From the NCBI GenBank assembly GCA_025355175.1, contig JANYAF010000068.1, positions 1 through 38,450 of the forward strand: a stretch of 38,450 bases of DNA. Direction: 5' to 3'. Each line of letters starts with the position of its first letter. Positions within the stretch are counted from its first letter, which is position 1. Below are positions 6,463 to 38,146 of this stretch, one piece after another. Both the position numbers and the translations under genes were made by a program. The stretch comes from Deltaproteobacteria bacterium (GTDB lineage: Bacteria; Desulfobacterota; Syntrophia; Syntrophales; Smithellaceae). The notes beneath the pieces are model-generated. The model saw only the letters and a list, made by a program, of their open reading frames with translations. It was not told the DNA's origin and searched no databases.

Positions 6463-6526
6463 GATCAACCATCTCGCGAGCTCGCTGCGGAGAATTGACG
6501 CTCGTCCCGCTTAAGCGGGATTAAAA
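6463..6526. repeat. 64-bp dispersed repeat, copy 1
   Basis: This block matches 37942-38005 at about 60 of 64 positions (shared core CTCGCGAGCTCGCTGCGGAG, then GAATTGACGCTCGTCCCGC, a 4-base loop and GCGGG). It fills the whole gap between the ccdA-like and redoxin genes, and its last six bases include the ccdA-like stop codon. The CCCGC-loop-GCGGG end forms a short hairpin; the loop bases differ between copies. Confidence 0.8.
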
Positions 6527-7234
6527 AGCAAGCGTGCCCGCAGTATACAGGAAATATTCGGCCGCGCCAATCAAAATAACGCCGAAAACCCTTGTGATTA
6601 TAGTCATCCAGGCCCCCGATCGCGGCAGTGATGAAATAAATCCGGCAAACGTTCCGACCAGAATCAAGAGCGTCCCCATGCCTAAGGCAAAAGCAAACAG
6701 AAGGCCGATGCCCAATAGAACATGGGTCTGCAGCGCCACAAAACCAAGCAGCACGCCCAACACAGGCGCGGTGCAGGGACCGATCACAAAACCGGAGGCC
6801 GCGCCCAACAAAAAACTGGCCATAAACCCTTTTTTGCCGCCGGCGGAATATTTCATCATTCCTTGCGGAATCGGGATTGAAATTTTGAAAACATCGAGCA
6901 TGGACAATCCCATAATCAGGCAAACGTTGGCCATGATAAAATAGACCAGCGGAGTCGTCTGCATCTGTCCGAAGAGTTTTCCCGACAAAGCCGCCACAGC
7001 TCCCAGGGCGGCATACATCACCGCCAGCCCCAGAACATAGAACAACGACAGCAGAAAACCGCGCAGTTTCGAGGATGCCCCCTGCGCGCCGATGAATCCG
7101 ACTGTCACGGGTATCAACGGATAAGTGCAGGGTGTAAAGCTGATCACCAGGCCTCCAAGATAGGCTGCTATGAACGCCAGCAGCACCGAACCCTGTAAAT
7201 ACCCGGATAAATTATTAATTAGATTTTCAATCAT
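6521..7234 (-). CDS. CcdA/DsbD-like thiol-disulfide transmembrane protein
   Basis: A 237-residue protein with about six transmembrane segments, the size of stand-alone CcdA proteins that carry reducing equivalents from cytoplasmic thioredoxin across the membrane. The two redox cysteines are at about residues 36 (SFTPCTYPLIPVT) and 154 (IGPCTAPVLG), each in the typical proline-flanked context. The gene directly precedes the exported TlpA-like protein on the same strand, and the two probably form a functional pair. The stop codon falls inside the 64-bp dispersed repeat, so insertion of the repeat may have defined the present C-terminus. Confidence 0.85.
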   Translation of the reverse strand: MIENLINNLSGYLQGSVLLAFIAAYLGGLVISFTPCTYPLIPVTVGFIGAQGASSKLRGFLLSLFYVLGLAVMYAALGAVAALSGKLFGQMQTTPLVYFIMANVCLIMGLSMLDVFKISIPIPQGMMKYSAGGKKGFMASFLLGAASGFVIGPCTAPVLGVLLGFVALQTHVLLGIGLLFAFALGMGTLLILVGTFAGFISSLPRSGAWMTIITRVFGVILIGAAEYFLYTAGTLAF

Positions 7235-7464: not shown

Positions 7465-9453
7465 ATGAACAAGAGAAAGAGTTTGTGGCTGCTGCAAGTT
7501 CTTTTCCTCGCTCTGATCGCCCTGGTCGTCATGGTGCATGTTCCGGCTCAAGCTGCGGAACCCGGGGCTGCCACAGAGGCGACCCGACAATCAAACGTCG
7601 CTGTTCTCCATGACCTGCCGTTCAGTGACAAGCAGGACTTTGCCGACGCCGCCCGTGGGTTGGTCGCACCCGCGCCGGCCGCCGTCATCCGCAATCCCGA
7701 AGGCCTGATCGTTTGGGATATGAACCCATATCAGTTCCTGAACGGGGACGCCTCTTTGGAGACCATCAATCCCAGCCTGCGACGCCAGGCAACGCTTAAC
7801 AATTTCCATGGCCTATTTAAAGTGGCCGACCGGATATATCAGGTGCGTGGTTATGACCTGGCCAACATGGGGATCGTTGTGGGCGATACCGGCTACATTG
7901 TCATTGATCCCCTCACTTCTGTTGATACCTCACGGGCAGCCCTTGAGCTTGTCTATGCGCATCTGGGAAAGAAACCCATCATGGCCGTCATCCATTCCCA
8001 CAGCCATGCGGATCACTGGGCAGGCATAAAAGGAGTGGTCTCCGCCGAGGATGTCAAGGGGGGTAAGGTCAAGATCATCGCTCCGGCGGGGTTTATGGAA
8101 GAGGCCATCAGTGAAAACATCTACGCCGGCAATGCCATGATCCGGAGGAGCCAGTACATGTACGGGCCCTTCTTACAGCGGGGACCCCGGGGGCAGGTGG
8201 ATGCAGGCCTCGGGAAATCAGTACCCCTGACCCTGTCCACCAGCCTGATTCATCCGACCGATACGGTGGTTAAAACGGGACAGGAAATGATCGTTGACGG
8301 CACCAAAATCGCCTTTCAGATGACGCCCGGCACGGAGGCGCCGTCGAATATGAATTTTCATTTTCCACAGTTGAGGGCGCTCTTTATGGCCGACAATTGT
8401 GTGGCCACCCTCCACAACCTGCTTACCCCCCGGGGGGCCCAGGTTCGCAACGCCAAGACCTGGTCAGGCTTTATCCATGAGGCTATTGATCGCTTCGGGG
8501 AAACGTCGGATGTGGTCTTTGCCGGCCATACCTGGCCCCGGTGGGGAAAGGAAAATATCATTAATTACCTGCGCAAGCAGGCTGACGTCTATAAATACAT
8601 CCACGACCAGACTCTGCGCCTGGCCAACCACGGCTACACCATGACAGAAATCGCCGAGGAGCTTCGACTGCCGGATACATTGGCCAGGGAATGGTTCAAC
8701 CGCGGTTATTATGCCACGGTGGGCTGGAACGCCAAGGCGGTGTATCAGCACTATCTGGGCTGGTACGACGGCAATCCGGCCAATTTCAACCCCTTGCCGT
8801 CGGTGGAGGCAAGCAGAAAGTACGTAGAATTCATGGGAGGCGCAGACCAGGTCCTGACCAAAGCGAAGGCATCCTTTGACAAGGGCGAGTACCGTTGGGT
8901 TGCCCAGGTTGTAAACCATGTCGTTTTTGCCGATCCCGAAAACCAGGCGGCCCAACTGCTCCAGGCCGACACCCTGGAGCAGTTGGGCTACCAGTCAGAA
9001 TCGGCCGTCTTCCGGAATTTCTATCTCTTCGGGGCCCAGGAACTCAGGCAAGGCGTCAAGAAGCCCTTCGCCAAGATACCCCCCGCCCTAGACGTCTATC
9101 AGGCCCTGACCCTGGACATGATCTTCGACAGCATGGCTGTTCGCCTCAACGGCCCAAGGGCAGCGGGGAAGTCCATTACCATAAACTGGCATTTCACCGA
9201 CACAAACGAGCTTTACGTCCTGTCCCTGGAAAATTCCGTCCTGAACCACACCGCTGGAAAACAGGCCAAAAACGCCGACTGCTCGGTCAAACTCTCCCGG
9301 GAACTTTTCAACAAGGTCATTAACGGACAGACCACCTTTCTCGCCAGGATTCTACTGCGACAGATCTCCTATGAGGGGAGTATCGGGAAACTCAGTGAAC
9401 TCATGTCTATGCTGGATGAATTCGATCTGTGGTTCAATATCGTAACGCCATAA
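7465..9453 (+). CDS. Secreted alkyl sulfatase (SdsA-like, MBL fold)
   Basis: A 662-residue protein resembling type III linear primary-alkyl sulfatases, which hydrolyse alkyl sulfate esters such as dodecyl sulfate to an alcohol and sulfate. A signal peptide is visible (residues 1-30, cleavage after PAQAA). The metallo-beta-lactamase domain carries the di-zinc motif HSHSHADHWAG near residues 177-187. Other family stretches are MADNCVATLHNLLTPRGAQV and FAGHTWPRWG. The C-terminal part fits the dimerisation and SCP2-like domains of the family. The start follows AGGGGAAAAAT. The ALDH-ADH fusion gene begins 28 bases downstream, suggesting that the released alcohol is oxidised by it. The exact substrate is not known, and the sulfate is released outside the cytoplasm. 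Confidence 0.88.
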   Translation: MNKRKSLWLLQVLFLALIALVVMVHVPAQAAEPGAATEATRQSNVAVLHDLPFSDKQDFADAARGLVAPAPAAVIRNPEGLIVWDMNPYQFLNGDASLETINPSLRRQATLNNFHGLFKVADRIYQVRGYDLANMGIVVGDTGYIVIDPLTSVDTSRAALELVYAHLGKKPIMAVIHSHSHADHWAGIKGVVSAEDVKGGKVKIIAPAGFMEEAISENIYAGNAMIRRSQYMYGPFLQRGPRGQVDAGLGKSVPLTLSTSLIHPTDTVVKTGQEMIVDGTKIAFQMTPGTEAPSNMNFHFPQLRALFMADNCVATLHNLLTPRGAQVRNAKTWSGFIHEAIDRFGETSDVVFAGHTWPRWGKENIINYLRKQADVYKYIHDQTLRLANHGYTMTEIAEELRLPDTLAREWFNRGYYATVGWNAKAVYQHYLGWYDGNPANFNPLPSVEASRKYVEFMGGADQVLTKAKASFDKGEYRWVAQVVNHVVFADPENQAAQLLQADTLEQLGYQSESAVFRNFYLFGAQELRQGVKKPFAKIPPALDVYQALTLDMIFDSMAVRLNGPRAAGKSITINWHFTDTNELYVLSLENSVLNHTAGKQAKNADCSVKLSRELFNKVINGQTTFLARILLRQISYEGSIGKLSELMSMLDEFDLWFNIVTP

Positions 9454-9481
9454 ATTAAGACCAAGAAAGGGAGGATTTAAG

Positions 9482-12142
9482 ATGGACCATTACAAATTAT
9501 TTATTGATGGAGAGTTTGTTGAAGCGGCAAACGGCGATGTTTTTGAAACCATCGATCCGGGGACGGGAGCACCCTTTGCTACAGTGGCTAAAGCCGGACG
9601 GGCGGATGCCGAGGCGGCTATTGCCGCGGCGAAGCGGGCCTTTGAGAGCGGTATCTGGAGCAACCTCAGCCCCGCTGCCCGGGCGGACAAAATCTATGAC
9701 TTTGCTGATCAGGTGGCCCAGCAGACACTAAGGCTGGCCATAACGGAATCCCAGGACGCCGGGCACGTGATTAAACTCTCCAAGTACTGGGGAATGCTGG
9801 GATCGGGGATTCTGCGCAATCTGGGTTACTACGCCAGCCGTGACTTCCCCTGGCAGGAAGAAATTCCCTATTCGGGGAATGTCTTTGCCCCCGGCCGGGA
9901 ATGGATCCGCCGGGAACCTATCGGCGTCTGCGTCGGTATTGTTCCCTGGAACTTTCCCGCCAGTATGGCCTTCTGGAAAATCGCGCAGGCCATTATCATG
10001 GGGAACACCATCGTTTTGAAACCGGCCACCTCTACACCGCTGACGGCTCTGATCATCGCCGAAGCGGCGCAGGCGGCAGGCATCCCGAAAGGGGTCATCA
10101 ATGTCCTCCCCGGCCCGGGCGGTGAACTGGGCAAGATCCTGTGCACGCACCCCGATGTGGGAAAGGTCGCCATTACGGGAAGCACCGAAGTCGGCCGCGA
10201 AATCATGAAAATGGCCGCCGATACAGTGAAAAAGGTCACCCTGGAACTGGGAGGGAAGTCCGCCAACATCATCCTGGATGACGCCGATATCGATCTGGCT
10301 GTCAATGGCGCCTGCTTCGGAACTTTCTTCCACCAGGGCCAGGTCTGCGAATCAGGGACCCGTGTACTGGTGCCGGCAAAAATCTATGATGAATTCATTG
10401 AGAAAATGAAGAAAAGAGCAGAGCAAATCCGCGTGGGCTACCAACTCCTGCCCGACAGCCACATGGGACCCCTGGCCAATGCGGCCCAACTGGCCACCGT
10501 GGAACGCTATGTCAAACTGGGACAGGAAGAAGGGGCAAAGCTGATGACAGGTGGGAAGCGCGTCGTGATGCCCGGCTTGGAAGGTGGTTACTATTATGCC
10601 CCCACGATCTTCACCGATGTTAAAAACTCGATGCGTATTGCCCAGGAAGAAATCTTCGGACCGGTCTGCTGCGTCATCAAGTACGACGGCGATGAAGAAG
10701 CCGTGGCCATTGCCAATGACTCCATCTACGGTCTGGGCGGCGGCGTCTTTTCCCGCAGCAATGCCCGCGCTGTCCGTGTGGCCGAACAGATCCGTACGGG
10801 AACCGTCTGGATCAACAACTATCATATCTTCGCTGATTTTTGCCCCTTTGGCGGCTACAAGCAGTCCGGCGTGGGCAGAGAATTGGGCGCCGCGGGACTT
10901 GCCGAATACACCCAGATCAAGCGCATCCACGTCAACTCATTTGCCGCCGTCGAAAGCAACTTCACCATGTCCTGTCTTTCCGATGAGACCAAGGTTGCCT
11001 TTGTCCAATATAACTGTCCCACGAATGTGATCTCCGGCCACGGCACACTCCCCGCCATCTATAAAGAGGTGATGAACCTCGGGTGCAAACGGGTCCTGAT
11101 CATGACTGATCCGGGGGTAAGGAAGGCTGGTCTCGTGCAGCGGGTCCAGGATGCTCTGGTGGAATTCTGTGTGGGCGTCTACGACAATATTGCCCAGGAC
11201 ACGGATCTGGATATCGTGGATGCTGCAACCGCCATAGCCCGTGATCTCAGGGCGGACTGTATCGTCAGTGTCGGCGGAGGGAGTGTTATCGATACGGCCA
11301 AAGCGGTTTGTGTTACGCTGAAAAACGGAGGCAAGTGCAATGATCATATTGCCATCAACCGACTCCAGGAACCTCAGATTCCTCACATCGTTATCCCCAC
11401 AACCTCAGGGACCGGAAGCGAAGTGACGAGTATTGCCGTTATCAAGAGCAAGAAGGCCGGGAGAAAGGTCTTTCTGGTGGATCCCCGGATTATCCCCAAT
11501 ACGGCAATCCTTGATCCGCAATTCACCCTCACCCTGCCGCCGGGATTAACGGCGACAACCGCTATGGACGCCATGACCCATGCCGTGGAAGCTCTGACAA
11601 GCATCATGGCCCAGCCCATTTGCGACGGTCAGGCCCTCCAGGCCATTCGCCTGATCAAGGAAAACCTGCCCAAGGTTATCGCCAACCCCAAAGATGAAAA
11701 GGCCAGAAACCAGCTTCAGATCGCCGCCACCATGGCCGGTTGGGCCTTCACCATCGCCCAGGTCGGCCTGGCTCATGCCATGGCCCACACACTGGGAATC
11801 CTCTATAATGTCCCCCACGGCGCGGCTTGTGGTATTGTCTTACCCGCGGTGATGCGTTTCAATGTCGATTTTGCCGCCGATAAGCTGGCGATGGTTGCCC
11901 AGGTCATGGGGATGAACACCGTCGGGATGGACAACCGAACGGCTGCCCTGGCAGCGGCGGACGCTGTTGAAAAGCTGATGAAAGAGGCAGGCCATCCCAT
12001 GCGGCTGCGTGACGTGGGTGTTCCCGAGGATGGCCTTGATATGGCCGCCTTCCACGCGATCTGCGATACGGCGGCCCTCTTCAATGCCCGGCCCGTGGGA
12101 GACCCCGGTGAAGTGGCTGCGCTGTATAAATCATTATATTAA
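9482..12142 (+). CDS. Bifunctional aldehyde dehydrogenase / iron-type alcohol dehydrogenase fusion
   Basis: An 886-residue two-domain enzyme. Residues about 1-490 are a classical NAD(P)-dependent aldehyde dehydrogenase: IVPWNFP, GSTEVGREI, the general-base region LELGGKSANI and the catalytic cysteine in GQVCESG (about residue 289). Residues about 500-886 are a group III iron-dependent alcohol dehydrogenase with VGGGSVIDTAK, TTSGTGSEVT, and metal-ligand segments DAMTHAVEAL and HAMAHTLG...VPHG. This differs from AdhE, whose aldehyde dehydrogenase half is CoA-acylating. The expected chemistry is alcohol to aldehyde to carboxylate with two NADH, or aldehyde dismutation. The ribosome binding site is GGGAGG and the gap after the alkyl sulfatase is 28 bases. 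Domain assignment is firm; direction and substrate are inferred. Confidence 0.88.
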   Translation: MDHYKLFIDGEFVEAANGDVFETIDPGTGAPFATVAKAGRADAEAAIAAAKRAFESGIWSNLSPAARADKIYDFADQVAQQTLRLAITESQDAGHVIKLSKYWGMLGSGILRNLGYYASRDFPWQEEIPYSGNVFAPGREWIRREPIGVCVGIVPWNFPASMAFWKIAQAIIMGNTIVLKPATSTPLTALIIAEAAQAAGIPKGVINVLPGPGGELGKILCTHPDVGKVAITGSTEVGREIMKMAADTVKKVTLELGGKSANIILDDADIDLAVNGACFGTFFHQGQVCESGTRVLVPAKIYDEFIEKMKKRAEQIRVGYQLLPDSHMGPLANAAQLATVERYVKLGQEEGAKLMTGGKRVVMPGLEGGYYYAPTIFTDVKNSMRIAQEEIFGPVCCVIKYDGDEEAVAIANDSIYGLGGGVFSRSNARAVRVAEQIRTGTVWINNYHIFADFCPFGGYKQSGVGRELGAAGLAEYTQIKRIHVNSFAAVESNFTMSCLSDETKVAFVQYNCPTNVISGHGTLPAIYKEVMNLGCKRVLIMTDPGVRKAGLVQRVQDALVEFCVGVYDNIAQDTDLDIVDAATAIARDLRADCIVSVGGGSVIDTAKAVCVTLKNGGKCNDHIAINRLQEPQIPHIVIPTTSGTGSEVTSIAVIKSKKAGRKVFLVDPRIIPNTAILDPQFTLTLPPGLTATTAMDAMTHAVEALTSIMAQPICDGQALQAIRLIKENLPKVIANPKDEKARNQLQIAATMAGWAFTIAQVGLAHAMAHTLGILYNVPHGAACGIVLPAVMRFNVDFAADKLAMVAQVMGMNTVGMDNRTAALAAADAVEKLMKEAGHPMRLRDVGVPEDGLDMAAFHAICDTAALFNARPVGDPGEVAALYKSLY

Positions 12143-12157
12143 TCCTGCCGGAAACGG

Positions 12158-12197
12158 TATCGCCATCCTGATGGACAGTCGAATCAGGATGGCGATA
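12158..12197. terminator. Perfect 15-bp stem-loop between convergent genes
   Basis: TATCGCCATCCTGAT (12158-12172) is perfectly complementary to 12183-12197 around a 10-base loop. It lies 16 bases past the fusion gene stop and before the convergent LysR stop, so it is well placed as a transcription terminator. There is no clear T-run after it. Confidence 0.65.
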
Positions 12198-12252
12198 GTC
12201 TTCGCACGACGGGTGTTTGGAAATGCTTCTGCTGTGAACGGACTGTGCGACT

Positions 12253-13137
12253 CTATCTGCTTTCGTTCAGAATTGAAAGGAAAGCTTTCAGAAGTGCCGT
12301 GCGGTATTCGCCATTTCTGGTTAGGATGATCAGGTTTCTTCGTAAATCAAGAGTGGTGTGCACTTCCGTAAGCCACTCATGAGAAAGCTCTCTAGCCACC
12401 GCCATTCTTGAAAGACAACTTACTCCCAATCCTGCTTCAACGGCTTTTTTGATGGCCTCCGTGTGCCCAAGCTCCATGGATATGGTAAAGGTGATGCCTT
12501 TCTTCTTCAGCGCGGATTCAAATATCTCTCTGGTTCCGGATCCCTTTTCCCGCATGATCCATTGCGCTTTTTCCAGCATAGCCTTGGATGCTCTTTTTTG
12601 CATTGTCCAGGGGTGCCCCTTTCCGACGACCACAACAAGCTCATCGTTCCTCCATTGTGTTGAGTGAAGCGAACCGACATGGGAAGGTCCCTCGATAATT
12701 CCCATGTCCAACGCACCGGTTTCCACTGCATGCTCGATCTGGTCGGTATTGCCGACCTGCAGCCAGGCTTTGGCACGAGGATAGTTCCGGGTGAAGTCCC
12801 CAACGATAGTAGGAAGAATATAGTTGCCAACCGTGGTGCTGGCCCCCACTTTCAATACGCCTATCGGTTCACCGACGGATTCAATCAGCAACTGCTCTAT
12901 CGTGCTAACTTGCCGCAGCACGTCCTGCGCCTGAGACAAAATCAGACGCCCCCGATCATTGAGCAGTAACCGCCTGCCACGGCGTTCAAAAAGAGGCGTA
13001 TCGGCAAATTTCTCCAATTCGGCAATAGCCATGCTGACTGCCGATTGGGTGATGAACAACTGTTCGCCGGCTTTCGTAACATGCCGGCCACTGGCAACCT
13101 TTTCGAAAATCTCCAACTGTCTCAGTGTAATTGTCAT
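12253..13137 (-). CDS. LysR-family transcriptional regulator, divergent from dsr
   Basis: A 294-residue LysR-type regulator of normal length. The N-terminal winged helix-turn-helix (residues about 1-60) includes LRQLEIFEKVA, FITQSAVSMAIAELE and PLFERRGRR. The rest is the periplasmic-binding-protein-like effector domain. Relatives of this type include CysL/CbbR-like regulators. It is transcribed divergently from dsrA and convergently with the ALDH-ADH gene. The shared upstream region holds AT-rich inverted repeats (ATTATT-N5-AATAAT at 13166-13182) that fit a LysR T-N11-A box, and a second copy of the block lies closer to dsrA. It probably senses a sulfur compound and controls dsr and itself; the ligand is unknown. 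Confidence 0.88.
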   Translation of the reverse strand: MTITLRQLEIFEKVASGRHVTKAGEQLFITQSAVSMAIAELEKFADTPLFERRGRRLLLNDRGRLILSQAQDVLRQVSTIEQLLIESVGEPIGVLKVGASTTVGNYILPTIVGDFTRNYPRAKAWLQVGNTDQIEHAVETGALDMGIIEGPSHVGSLHSTQWRNDELVVVVGKGHPWTMQKRASKAMLEKAQWIMREKGSGTREIFESALKKKGITFTISMELGHTEAIKKAVEAGLGVSCLSRMAVARELSHEWLTEVHTTLDLRRNLIILTRNGEYRTALLKAFLSILNESR

Positions 13138-13588: not shown

Positions 13589-13625
13589 GACCGAAAAAAT
13601 GAACGGTATTGAGAGGAGGAAAATC

Positions 13626-14816
13626 ATGGCAAAATCAGATACCCCCCTTCTGGATGAACTGGAAAAGGGAAAGTGGCCAAGCTTTGTAAAAGACATGAAG
13701 CAGGCGGCCGAAAAGAGTCCCATGGCCGAGGATCTCCTTCGCCAGTTGGAACTTTCTTATAAAGACAAAATCGGTCATTGGAAGCATGGGGGTATTGTCG
13801 GCGTCAAGGGCTACGGTGCCGGCGTTATCGGGCGCTACTCGGATCGACCCGATCTGTTCCCCAATGTTCAGGCCTTTCACACCATGAGGGTCAATCACCC
13901 CACAGGGTGGTTCTACAAGACGGATGCCCTGCGCAACCTCTGTGATGTCTGGGACAAACACGGCAGCGGTCTCACCAACATGCATGGCTCAACCGGAGAT
14001 GCCATTCTGCTCGGCACAAAAACAGAGCACCTTCAATCCTGTTTTGATGACCTTTCCGCGGCCGGTTTTGACCTCGGCGGCTCCGGCTCCGCCCTCCGGA
14101 CACCCAGCGCCTGCGTCGGACCGGGACGTTGTGAATGGGCTTGCGTTGACAGTCTCGATGTTTGTTACAACCTCACCATGCACTACCAGGATAAGATGCA
14201 CCGTCCCATGTTTCCCTATAAATTCAAGATCAAGGTATCGGCCTGCGCCAATGATTGCGTCGCCTCCATCGCCCGGTCGGATTTTTCCGTCATCGGGACC
14301 TGGAAAGGAGACATTCAGATTAACCAGAAGGAAGTTCTCGCCTACGCCGCATCAGCCATCAATATTCAGACGGAAGTTTGTGACCTTTGCCCGACGAAGT
14401 GTATGGAATGGAACGGAAAAGAACTGAAAATATATAATGAGGACTGCACCCGCTGTATGCACTGCATCAACCTGATGCCGAAAGCCCTGCGGCCGGGCAA
14501 GGAGAGGGGCGCGACCATCCTCGTCGGTGGCAAGGCGCCTATTGTGCAAGGGGCTCTTCTTTCCTGGGTCATCGTGCCGTTTATGAAATTGGAACCGCCT
14601 TACACGGAACTCAAAGACTTGATTGACCGCATCCAGGATTGGTGGGACGAGCATGGCAAATCCAGGGAAAGATTGGGCGAATTAATCACGCGCCTGGGCA
14701 TGAGGGTATTCCTGCGGGCCGTAGGCCTGCCCGCCGTTCCCCAGATGGTTAAGGCGCCCCGAACCAATCCGTATGTATTCTTCTGGCCTGAAGAAATTCA
14801 AAAGGAGGTGAAGTAA
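13626..14816 (+). CDS. dsrA: Dissimilatory sulfite reductase subunit alpha
   Basis: A 396-residue DsrA. DsrAB reduces sulfite with six electrons in the cytoplasm and loads the product on DsrC. The siroheme-[4Fe-4S] cysteines appear as Cys163 and Cys169 (CVGPGRC) and Cys207 and Cys211 (CANDC). An inserted ferredoxin domain carries Cys252, Cys255, Cys259 and Cys274, Cys277, Cys280 (CTRCMHC). I chose the ATG at 13626 because AGGAGG lies six bases upstream; an ATG at 13599 has no site and adds an untypical MNGIERRKI. dsrB follows after one base. Presence of dsrD and dsrN downstream points to the reductive rather than sulfur-oxidising type. Confidence 0.97.
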
Positions 14817-14817
14817 G

Positions 14818-15879
14818 ATGGCAAAAACAGACATTGGTCCCCCTGACTATAAAACCATGCTGCCACCCGTCATTCAGAGAAATTACGGGAAATGGCTCTA
14901 TCATGAAATTCTCAAACCGGGCGTGCTCATGCACGTTGCAGAATCCGGAGAGGCGCTCTATACTGTGCGCGCCGGTTCCCCGCGACTGGTCTCAACGGAT
15001 CACATCCGGGAAATCTGCGACATTGCGGAAAAATATTGTGACGGTTACCTGCGTTTCACCAGCCGTAACAATATTGAATTTCTTCTGGACGACAAGGATA
15101 AAGTCGAACCCCTGATTGCCGAACTGGACACGCACAACTATCCTGTCGGCGGTACCGGACACTCCATCTCGAACATCGTCCACACCCAGGGCTGGGTCCA
15201 CTGCCACACCCCCGCCACCGATGCCTCGGGACCCGTCAAGGCCCTCATGGATGAGATCTATGAGTATTTCGTCACATCGACACTGCCGGCCCATGTCCGG
15301 ATTGCCCTGGCCTGCTGCCTGAACATGTGCGGCGCCGTGCACTGCTCCGACATCGCCATTCTGGGTATTCACCGTACAGTGCCTAAGGTGGACAACACCC
15401 GCGTACCGAACATGTGTGAAATCCCGTCCACGGTAGCCTCCTGCCCCACGGGCGCCATCCGGGGTGATATGAAGAACAAAACCGTTACCGTCAATGACGA
15501 GAAGTGCATGTATTGCGGAAACTGTTACACCGTTTGTCCGGCCATGCCGATTGCCGATCCCGAAAACGACGGGATATCCATCTGGGTCGGAGGCAAAGTC
15601 TCCAACGCCCGAAGCGCTCCGAAGTTTTCCAAGCTGGCGATTCCTTTTCTTCCCAACAACCCGCCGCGCTGGCCGGAGGTTGTGGATGCCGTGAAGAACA
15701 TCATCGAAGTCTATGCAAGTCACGCCCGAAAGCATGAACGGGTCGGCGAATGGATCGAACGCGTCGGCTGGGAGCGGTTCTTCACCCTGACGGGCATTCC
15801 GTTTACGGACAAGCATATCGACGATTTCGATATGGCAACGGAAACATTCCGAACATCTACGCAATTCAAATGGGGGTGA
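14818..15879 (+). CDS. dsrB: Dissimilatory sulfite reductase subunit beta
   Basis: A 353-residue DsrB, partner of DsrA in the alpha2beta2 enzyme and the subunit that binds catalytic siroheme in known structures. The cysteine-rich region [11 protein letters not shown] (about residues 166-176) supplies siroheme-cluster ligands. The ferredoxin domain has Cys200 and Cys209 and the [11 protein letters not shown] motif at residues 230-240. The ribosome binding site AGGAGG lies inside the end of dsrA, one base separates the genes, and dsrD starts two bases after the dsrB stop, so translation is probably coupled. Confidence 0.97.
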
Positions 15880-27327: not shown

Positions 27328-27396
27328 TAGGGACAGGCCACACACATTCGAGACGTATTCAGCAGAGGGTGCAACCGATAAGAGATGGAGTGTTCA

Positions 27397-28596
27397 TTGA
27401 AAATTCTAGTCTTAAATTGCGGCAGTTCATCGCTCAAATACAAACTCTTTGAGATGGGGGACAACATCGTCCTGGCCCATGGTCAGGCGGACCGTATCGG
27501 CATGACCGACGCTGTCTTTCAACATGATGCGCAAGGGCACGAAACCTTTCTGAACAAAACACCGCTCGCCAATCATCACGAAGCCGTGCATGCTCTGTTG
27601 ACCCATCTTGTCGACGGGCAGCAGGGAGTTCTAACGGATATGAGTGAAATTGGTGGTGTCGGGCACCGGGTAGTTCACGGCGGAGAACATTTCCGTACCT
27701 CCGTTATCGTTGATCCCGCGATACGGGAAACCCTCGAGGCAACCAAGAAACTCGCCCCGCTCCATAACCCGCCGAACCTCATGGGAATTGATGTCTGTAC
27801 AAGCCTCATGCCCGGCGTACCCCAGGTGGCTGTCTTCGACACAGCCTTCCACCAGACCATGCCAGCATATGCATACACCTACGCGATCCCTTATCATTAT
27901 TACATAGAGGATCATGTCCGCCGCTACGGCTTCCATGGCATCTCACATCGTTATGTAGCCTGCCGGACGGCGGAAATCCTGGGGAAGAATATGGAGGATT
28001 TGAGGATCATCACCTGCCATCTCGGAGCAGGCTCGAGTCTCTGCGCTGTGGCGGCAGGAAAATCTCTGGATACCTCCATGGGTTTTACACCTCTGTCGGG
28101 TCTCGTTATGGGTACACGCTCGGGTGATATCGATCCGGCGCTTGTTTCCTTCCTTGTGGAGAAGGAGCAGAGTTCCCTGACGCAGGTGATGGACATGCTG
28201 AATCGCGAGAGCGGCGTTTTCGGCATCTCCGGCATATCGCCCGATTTTCGCGATCTGGAAAAGGAAGCCGGCATCGGCAATGAGCGGGCACGTCTGGCGC
28301 TTGATGCCTATGCTTATAGTGTGGCCAAAGGGATTGGTTCCCTGATTCCGGCCGCAGGCGGTCTTGATGTTCTTGTCTTTACCGCGGGAATCGGCGAACA
28401 CTCACCAAACATGCGGCGGCGGATCTGCGCATTTCTTTCCTGTCTGGGCATTGCTCTGGATGAAAATAAAAATATCGATGGCTTTGTCGAAGGGGAGATC
28501 TCCCAGCCCGGGACGAAGGTAAAAATTCTCGTCGTTCCAACGGATGAAGAAAAAATGATCGCCCGGGAGACGCGGACGGTTTTGCAAAAACAATAA
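27397..28596 (+). CDS. ackA: Acetate kinase
   Basis: A complete acetate kinase of about 399 residues, converting acetyl phosphate and ADP to acetate and ATP. Visible motifs are KILVLNCGSSSLKYKL at the N-terminus, VGHRVVHGGE, VFDTAFHQTMP, GFHGISHRYV, CHLGAGSSL, MGFTPLSGLVMGTRSGDIDP and FTAGIGEHSP. The family normally starts MKILVLNCGSS; a TTG at 27397 at exactly that point has GGAG six bases upstream, so I chose it over an ATG at 27385, which would add four residues and has a weaker site. No phosphotransacetylase gene is near. The next gene, xsc, makes acetyl phosphate directly, so AckA probably harvests ATP from sulfonate cleavage. Confidence 0.95.
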   Translation: MKILVLNCGSSSLKYKLFEMGDNIVLAHGQADRIGMTDAVFQHDAQGHETFLNKTPLANHHEAVHALLTHLVDGQQGVLTDMSEIGGVGHRVVHGGEHFRTSVIVDPAIRETLEATKKLAPLHNPPNLMGIDVCTSLMPGVPQVAVFDTAFHQTMPAYAYTYAIPYHYYIEDHVRRYGFHGISHRYVACRTAEILGKNMEDLRIITCHLGAGSSLCAVAAGKSLDTSMGFTPLSGLVMGTRSGDIDPALVSFLVEKEQSSLTQVMDMLNRESGVFGISGISPDFRDLEKEAGIGNERARLALDAYAYSVAKGIGSLIPAAGGLDVLVFTAGIGEHSPNMRRRICAFLSCLGIALDENKNIDGFVEGEISQPGTKVKILVVPTDEEKMIARETRTVLQKQ

Positions 28597-28621: not shown

Positions 28622-30382
28622 ATGAAAAAAGTAAAAATGACACCCAGCGAAGCGATTGTCGAGACATTGCTGGCGGAAGGGGTGGATCACGTATGCGGCA
28701 TAGTGGGTTCCGCCTTTATGGACATGCTCGATCTTTTTCCGGCAGCGGGGATCAAATTTATACCCGTCCGCCATGAGCAGAGCGCCGCTCATATGGAAGA
28801 CGCCTACTGCCGCGTGTCGGGCCGGTGCGGTGTCGTCACAGGCCAGAACGGCCCCGGCATAACCAATATGGTCACATCGGTTGCCGCGGCAAACATGGGG
28901 CATACGCCCCTGGTCATTATTTCCCCGTCGGCGGGGACGCCCACCATCGGCTGGGACGGTTTCCAGGAATGCGACCAAATGTCCGTCTTTAAGGCCGTCA
29001 CGAAAGCCGTCGTCCGCGTTCCCCATCCCAAAAGAGCGGCTGATTGCCTGAGAACGGCCTTCCGCATCGCATACGCCGATCGGGGCGCTGTTCTTTATGA
29101 TATTCCCCGTGATTATTTCTACGGAGAGATCGAAGAGACCATCCTGAAACCCTCCCAATACCGGGTGGACGCCAGGGGATGCGGGTCCATGGAACAATTA
29201 AACAGGGCTGCCGAACTTCTGTCCAAAGCCAAAAATCCCGTCATCGTCTCCGGACGGGGGGTGGTCGATGCCGACGCGCTGGACATCGTCAAGGCCATCG
29301 CCGAACACCTGACCGCACCCGTGGCGGTCACTTATCTCCATAATGACGCCTTCTACGGAAATCATCCTTTATCCATCGGCCCCATCGGCTATATGGGTTC
29401 CAAAGCGGCCATGAAGACGCTGGCCAAGGCTGACGTCATGCTGGCTATCGGGACAAGGCTCTCCGTCTTCGGAACCCTGCCCCAGTATGACATCAATTAC
29501 TTCCCGGAGAATGCCAAGATTATCCAGATCGACATCAACCCCAAGCATATTGCCCGGACCCACCCCATCGAGGTCGGAATCATCGGCGATGCCAAGGAAG
29601 CCACTGTGGAAATCCTGAAGCGCCTGAAGGTCCTGGACCGAGGCCGCAAGCCCGATGCCAAACGCCTGGCAGCCGTGGCCAGGGAAAAGAAGATCTGGGA
29701 AAAGGAGATTGTCGATTTAGCCATGGTTGACGGCAATCCCATGAACCCAAGAAGAGTCCTGCTCGAAATCTCCAAAGCTCTGCCGGACAATGCCATCGTG
29801 TCCACTGATATCGGCAATGTTGCCTCGACAGCCAACAGTTACCTCAAGTTCAACCAGTCGAGACGGCATATCGCCGCCCTGACCTTTGGCAACACCGGAT
29901 TTGCCTATCCGGCAGCCCTCGGGGCGCAGATCGCCTGTCCCAAAGCGCCGGTCATCGCCATTGTCGGCGACGGCGCCTGGGGCATGAGTCTCCATGAGGT
30001 CAGCACCGCCGTGGAGCACAATCTGCCCGTTGTGGCCTGCGTTTTCCGGAACATGTGGTGGGGGGCCGAGGCCAAAAACCAGGTGGACTTCTATAACAAC
30101 CGGTTCGTAGGCGTGGACATTCCCACACCTGCGAGCTTTGTGCCGGTGGCCAAGGCGATGGGAGCCAACGGTATCCAGGTGAGTCGGCCCGAGGACATCA
30201 AGGAAGCCTTTCTGTCCTGTATCAAAAGCCGCAAGCCCACCGTGCTGGAATTTCTGGTAGACGGCAAGCAATTGGCCCCGCCCTTCAGGAAGGATGCCCT
30301 GGCGTTGCCGACTCGATTCCTATCCAAGTACGCTCATCTGGATCATCACAACTGGTACAAAGGAGGCGTCGATGATTTATAA
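28622..30382 (+). CDS. xsc: Sulfoacetaldehyde acetyltransferase
   Basis: A 586-residue TPP enzyme. Xsc cleaves sulfoacetaldehyde with phosphate into sulfite and acetyl phosphate. The sequence shows Xsc-like stretches: [59 protein letters not shown] and [17 protein letters not shown], and a C-terminus with PPFRKDAL. The catalytic glutamate that activates TPP is Glu52 ([11 protein letters not shown]). These features separate it from acetolactate synthases. GGAGG precedes the ATG and ackA ends 25 bases upstream. Sitting between ackA and the dsr operon, it would feed sulfite to DsrAB and acetyl phosphate to AckA. Assignment rests on remembered family motifs, not a search. Confidence 0.9.
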
Positions 30383-37759: not shown

Positions 37760-38146
37760 AGAATCTCCCCTTGTGGTTGGGCGATCTGTGCGGTTGCAAA
37801 GATAGCGAGAGATGATCTACGTGGTTGTGAGTCCTCCGTCAAAACCGCATAAATAAAAGGCACTAACTGGAGGGGAAAGTCAAGGGGATTTTTACCGATA
37901 AAAGCAGATTGCCGGTTAAAATCTTGAACTTTTTAGCGCGAGATCAACCACCTCGCGAGCTCGCTGCGGAGAATTGACGCTCGTCCCGCAATAGCGGGAT
38001 TAAAATTGTGTGGCTCAGGAAGAAATCAGCAGCAAGGTCCGAATACAAAACCCCGCAATGACTGCCTGTTATTCCTGTTTGACAACATATCGCTCTTTTG
38101 GTACCTTTCCACATTGGTGACATCCCCATTCGAGGAGCCAGACAAC
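37760..38146. other. Intergenic region between divergent GGDEF and ion-channel genes
   Basis: This 387-base stretch has no convincing gene. It holds the upstream region of the GGDEF gene, the second 64-bp dispersed repeat and a weak promoter-like pair, TTGACA (38079-38084) and TACCTT (38102-38107), 17 bases apart, in front of the ion-channel gene. Confidence 0.6.
37942..38005. repeat. 64-bp dispersed repeat, copy 2
   Basis: This matches 6463-6526 at about 60 of 64 positions. The differences are one base near the left end and three in the loop of the terminal hairpin (CCCGC-AATA-GCGGG here, CCCGC-TTAA-GCGGG in copy 1). The stem is kept in both copies although the loop changed. Confidence 0.8.

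Follow-up and report, generated by a model that had tools for sequence, protein, structure and literature searches.

A BdhE-type fusion of aldehyde and iron alcohol dehydrogenases encoded behind an alkyl sulfatase gene, with an active site of the predicted hydrolytic type

BdhE has been described as a fusion of an aldehyde dehydrogenase (ALDH) and an iron-dependent alcohol dehydrogenase (Fe-ADH) that arose independently of AdhE, of which it is considered an analogue (Konno et al., PMC12454647). The type member of the family, BdhE of Halomonas eurihalina (PDB 9LDL, published in 2025), is a closed ring tetramer with channels connecting ALDH and ADH, and 47 BdhE proteins were found in the published survey of 45,555 genomes (PMC12454647). 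AdhE shows the same ALDH-then-Fe-ADH order and the same iron-site residues, but it forms filaments, not rings. Alkyl sulfatases are also known in association with dehydrogenases: in the slf operon of the Psychrobacter plasmid pP62BP1, an alkyl sulfatase is encoded together with separate alcohol- and aldehyde-oxidising enzymes, and a route from alkyl sulfate through alcohol and aldehyde to the acid has been proposed (PMC3346939). The main text of the BdhE paper contains no alkyl sulfate setting, as the only sulfate terms found there belong to the SDS gel method (PMC12454647). A bdhE gene located behind an alkyl sulfatase gene and beside genes for sulfite respiration, as described below, is thus a new context for this family.

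In the window (the whole stretch of 38,450 nucleotides that was analysed), bdhE is a single uninterrupted open reading frame with an ATG start that occupies exactly positions 9482-12142 (+) and encodes 886 amino acids. An RBS-like GGGAGG (9469..9474, +) can be read between the stop codon of the upstream sulfatase gene and the bdhE start. The first-pass annotation had interpreted the product as an ALDH fused to an iron ADH and had suggested a domain search as a check; in agreement with this, Pfam finds both families complete. The ALDH domain (Aldedh, PF00171, E 6e-162) comprises residues 13-481 (9518..10924, +), and an interdomain linker of residues 482-512 (10925..11017, +) separates it from the type III Fe-ADH domain, residues 513-885 (11018..12136, +), in which Fe-ADH (PF00465, E 4e-46) matches residues 513-679 and ADH_Fe_C (PF25137, E 4e-54) residues 690-885.

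A sequence search of the PDB yielded one full-length match, 9LDL (1403 bits), which aligns from residues 1-886 to 1-886 without a gap. The corresponding locus of H. eurihalina, the species assayed by Konno et al., is one of the related loci collected here (L016), and its protein is 69% identical to that of the window with zero indels (71% over residues 1-485 and 68% over residues 513-886). BdhE proteins have been delimited by more than 40% identity to a known BdhE in both halves (PMC12454647), a value that the window protein exceeds in each of them, and it also has the N-terminal ALDH and the C-terminal Fe-ADH, in this order, in one chain longer than 700 amino acids. As the alignment with 9LDL has no indel, the elongated interface loops of BdhE should be present. 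By its sequence, the window protein consequently belongs to BdhE, an already described family, and is not a new type of fusion. Membership in AdhE was rejected, since the score against NF010378 is 314 bits (cut-off 951) and the ALDH residues are not of the acylating type; identity with E. coli AdhE (NP_415757) is about 29%. Because a homologue with 69% identity forms a closed ring tetramer, the AdhE-like filament suggested in the first-pass annotation is unlikely, and by analogy with that homologue the window protein should assemble into a ring tetramer and transfer the aldehyde between its ADH and ALDH sites. Unfused relatives are also found. At L054 (1480-4212) and L053, an ALDH gene and an iron-ADH gene lie side by side, separated by stops, and encode proteins about 40% identical to BdhE, an arrangement that looks like the unfused state of the family. 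In the phage collection, the two enzymes were found solely as products of separate, neighbouring genes, with 36% identity.

The possibility that the junction is an assembly artefact or a chance fusion, which had been named as grounds for discarding the proposal, was rejected. The search for the same fusion in other genomes returned 27 related loci from many independent assemblies, and 24/27 cover both halves, three of these being interrupted (frame shifts in L030 and L034, a TGA in L027). Additionally, differences between the window gene and that of L010 fall mostly on third codon positions (23/11/90 at positions 1/2/3 for the whole gene), and the same is true across the linker in the comparison with close relatives (1/0/4), where the frame stays open even though this is the least conserved region with respect to the 9LDL homologue (44% over residues 486-512). 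Purifying selection therefore extends through the linker, and the fusion is genuine and under selection. With about 14/149 related genomes carrying it here, and considering the published survey, the earlier impression that it is rare was a fair one. As for the interruption of L027 (9687-9689, BdhE codon 563), the in-frame TGA stands in a column occupied by Cys in nearly all other sequences, and the same is likely in L047; it is a candidate for either selenocysteine or a nonsense change, and Rfam found no SECIS in L027.

Acylating ALDHs lack the Glu general base and have, near the catalytic Cys, a His that is absent from the non-acylating enzymes (PMC4762007). The window protein shows the opposite pattern. 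It carries Asn157 of the oxyanion hole (9950..9952, +; ALDH2 Asn169), Glu255 as general base for thioester hydrolysis (10244..10246, +; ALDH2 Glu268), the nucleophile Cys289 (10346..10348, +; ALDH2 Cys302) and Glu390, the Asn, Glu, Cys, Glu set of non-acylating ALDHs, and in the alignment this set is present in 27/27 readable BdhE sequences, including L016, whereas E. coli AdhE has Thr, Val, Cys and Lys in the same columns. Moreover, the position of the acylating His (H367 in E. coli AdhE) is taken by Phe423 (10748..10750, +), with Phe in 21 and Tyr in 2 of the 23 sequences compared. In the other half, the metal-site residues Asp696, His700, His765, His769 and His779 (11567..11818, +) are conserved across BdhE and in AdhE. 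Regarding the cofactor, a Glu at ALDH2 position 195 favours NAD+, and this column has Thr183 in the window protein and Thr or Ser across BdhE. The best NCBIfam match of the ALDH domain is betaine-aldehyde dehydrogenase, with a score below its cut-off. As the Glu general base is present and the acylating His is absent, the residues support an ALDH half that is hydrolytic and CoA-independent. The first-pass annotation had called this half non-acylating on the basis of the motifs IVPWNFP, LELGGK and GQVCESG, which are indeed found at residues 153, 254 and 286; its residue-based part holds and is extended by E255 and F423, but the acetyl-CoA reduction reported for the homologue conflicts with a purely non-acylating enzyme.

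That report is the basis of the main alternative, in which BdhE would be an AdhE analogue that converts ethanol, or another short alcohol, reversibly to acetyl-CoA in a CoA-dependent manner. In its favour, the H. eurihalina enzyme oxidises ethanol and also oxidises NADH with acetyl-CoA, the latter more weakly than AdhE, and AdhE and BdhE have not been found together in one genome (PMC12454647); no AdhE was seen in the BdhE-bearing relatives studied here either, although AdhE is rare in this set (3/149). By contrast, the protein of the assayed species itself carries the Glu general base, and BdhE proteins have Phe or Tyr in place of the acylating His. Furthermore, the ethanol-oxidation mixture contained CoA and the assay methods of the main text mention no CoA-free condition (PMC12454647), so the published ethanol assay does not show CoA dependence. 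We consequently regard this role as unlikely, and prefer for the ALDH half the hydrolytic chemistry that its residues suggest, to which the genes around bdhE add a possible substrate.

The gene located 28 bp upstream of bdhE (7465..9453, +) encodes a predicted alkyl sulfatase with a signal-like N-terminus. It has the metallo-beta-lactamase (Lactamase_B, PF00753), dimerisation and SCP2-like C-terminal domains of SdsA-type enzymes (PF14863, 7e-62; PF14864, 6e-41), as well as the HxHxDH motif (HSHADH at residue 179), and its PDB matches are SdsA1 (2cfu, 663 bits) and PSdsA (4nur, 697 bits). The alignment with SdsA1, PSdsA and YjcS (2cfu, 4nur and 4pdx; about 700 bits to 4nur) extends over the whole mature length. 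However, a likely metal-ligand position that is Glu in PSdsA is Asp in the window protein (ADN instead of AED), and in L089 as well, and the window gene differs from these relatives in lying in a sulfite-respiration locus of an anaerobe.

The two-gene order is conserved in close relatives. The sulfatase-bdhE pair is also present in G015 (L010/L087) and in L031, where BdhE is 97-98% identical to that of the window. G008 has the EttA side, sulfatase, LysR, dsrA and dsrB in the same order as the window, but its bdhE ends after about 131 codons (L086 4043-4044) through deletion of the stretch that corresponds to window positions 9876-12211; since the neighbours are kept and only codons 1-131 remain, bdhE can be lost from the locus. 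The pairing rests on few events, and the window, G015 and G008 cases have one shared ancestry. In G006 (L009), a 97%-identical BdhE occurs without the alkyl sulfatase, in whose place there are a binding-protein gene and a gene for a neighbour of about 750 amino acids, and LysR-dsrAB is found on a second contig that starts inside the end of bdhE. The strongest contextual support for an alcohol-to-acid role comes from another genus of the bacterial family: in G021 and G033, an orthologous sulfatase (about 73% identical) precedes two separate genes, one for an Fe-ADH and one for an aldehyde:ferredoxin oxidoreductase (AOR), an unfused route from alcohol through aldehyde to free acid, and thus a second, separate link between this sulfatase and an alcohol-to-acid module. 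The slf operon of Psychrobacter likewise encodes oxidising enzymes for alcohol and aldehyde beside an alkyl sulfatase, but its dehydrogenase genes are separate, it includes a fatty-acid-CoA ligase, and the alcohol step is carried out by a GMC flavoprotein (PMC3346939). BdhE genes elsewhere, those of Halomonas included, mostly have no adjoining alkyl sulfatase, and the general substrate of BdhE is therefore not necessarily an alkyl alcohol.

Taken together, the explanation that we consider best, and reasonably probable, is a CoA-free conversion of alkyl sulfate to alcohol, aldehyde and carboxylate, the last two steps taking place in a ring-tetrameric BdhE. The exported sulfatase would release the alcohol from the alkyl sulfate outside the cytoplasm, and the ADH half would oxidise it to the aldehyde with NAD+. 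The aldehyde would be kept within the particle and handed from the ADH to the ALDH site, a channelling expected from the solved homologue, where it would be bound on Cys289 and transfer a hydride to NAD(P)+. Glu255 would then hydrolyse the thioester, giving the free carboxylate without CoA and a net yield of two reduced nicotinamides per alcohol. While the fusion, its family, the active-site residues and the conserved gene order are established, we infer the direction, the product, and the class and length of the substrate. Against this explanation count the acetyl-CoA activity and the AdhE-like role proposed by Konno et al. (PMC12454647), the BdhE loci without a sulfatase (L009 of G006 among them) and the Asp for Glu in the predicted sulfatase.

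BdhE has been presented as a case in which evolution arrived twice at the AdhE form and also at its function. Given the invariant residues of the readable BdhE sequences, and a sulfatase that in other genomes is accompanied by separate genes for ADH and AOR, the function may differ, with an acid instead of acyl-CoA as product. We tentatively suggest that the family consists of alcohol-to-free-acid enzymes that converged with AdhE in shape and not in reaction, employed here in anaerobic sulfate-ester breakdown beside a sulfonate-fed sulfite respiration. The locus also suggests a physiological setting for BdhE, in which an uncultured anaerobe would break down alkyl sulfates; what it adds to the published work is this genomic setting and the mismatch between the active site and the published function.

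BdhE could also be an aldehyde dismutase or detoxifier, with one half reducing and the other oxidising the same aldehyde and the NAD being recycled within the particle. In the assays of the homologue, NAD(H) serves both halves (PMC12454647), the particle is expected to be channelled, and AOR and ADH genes lie nearby in other lineages, as in some Dehalococcoidia, where BdhE is also found near Fe-ADH and AOR genes. Nevertheless, the position directly behind a sulfatase that would release an alcohol points to net alcohol oxidation, which makes this reading quite improbable.

Downstream of bdhE, a LysR regulator gene (12253..13137, -), nearest to YeiE (NCBIfam, 274 bits; cut-off 480), is divergent from dsrA. 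The genes dsrA and dsrB for dissimilatory sulfite reductase (13599..15879, +) score 569 bits (TIGR02064) and 535 bits (TIGR02066), both above cut-off, and are followed by ackA (27385-28596; TIGR00016, 467 bits, cut-off 293) and xsc for sulfoacetaldehyde acetyltransferase (28622..30382, +; TIGR03457, 852 bits, cut-off 676). A DsrK match above cut-off, DsrM/O/P-like genes, an SDR and a zinc ADH are also found in this downstream region. Neither sat (TIGR00339) nor aprA (TIGR02061) was found in the 96.7%-complete draft genome, in which an absence is not proof, and the cluster 13599-34309 looks like one for respiration of sulfonate-derived sulfite, not for sulfate reduction. Use of the sulfatase-released sulfate as electron acceptor for the adjacent Dsr pathway is likewise not supported, and this sulfate has no evident respiratory use, because sat and aprA were not found.

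That BdhE acts on a sulfonated alcohol or aldehyde of this cluster (isethionate, sulfoacetaldehyde or sulfolactaldehyde) seems very doubtful: although xsc, ackA, SDR, zinc ADH and dsrAB all lie downstream and LysR-dsrAB comes after bdhE in the window as well as in G006, there with a contig break in between, the LysR gene between bdhE and dsrA is on the opposite strand, BdhE does not track xsc (found in only about 6/14 fusion-bearing relatives), and R171 and R289, proposed to bind the sulfonate in the sulfolactaldehyde dehydrogenase RlGabD (PMC10599462), have Trp165 and Phe283 as their counterparts when positions are counted from the catalytic residues. Both xsc and dsrA are common in the genus to which this Syntrophales-like anaerobe belongs. 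A repeat of about 50-60 bp occurs at window positions 6464-6530 and 37943-38005, and in G006 and G008 it is again found close to these genes.

Some further observations concern the related loci. The window's genome encodes a second fusion, an aldehyde:ferredoxin oxidoreductase with AFOR_N and AFOR_C domains joined to an iron ADH (948 amino acids; L060 5097-7943, +; G000 contig C107:8096-10942), among beta-oxidation-like genes. Matches to it occur in 29/149 related genomes, many of them full length, and a literature search found no paper describing it. The family of about 750 amino acids mentioned above, which has no Pfam match, has its gene upstream of bdhE in divergent orientation, in lineages ranging from Syntrophales to Halomonas (L016:5538-7763 (-), L020, L015, L012, L009 and L019; also G007 and G001). 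In H. eurihalina it is thus the neighbour of a BdhE with the same domains, length and active-site residues as that of the window; it was not found in the window's genome. Its predicted fold is of low confidence (mean pLDDT 51, pTM 0.35) and it has no convincing sequence relative in the PDB (best E 0.41); it is a candidate regulator or partner of BdhE. Finally, in seven loci, most of them from Dehalococcoidia (L017:2529-2876, L025, L021, L023, L028, L030 and L035), the gene immediately preceding bdhE encodes a protein of 114-141 amino acids with a GCCD motif, weakly similar to Fe-S_biosyn.
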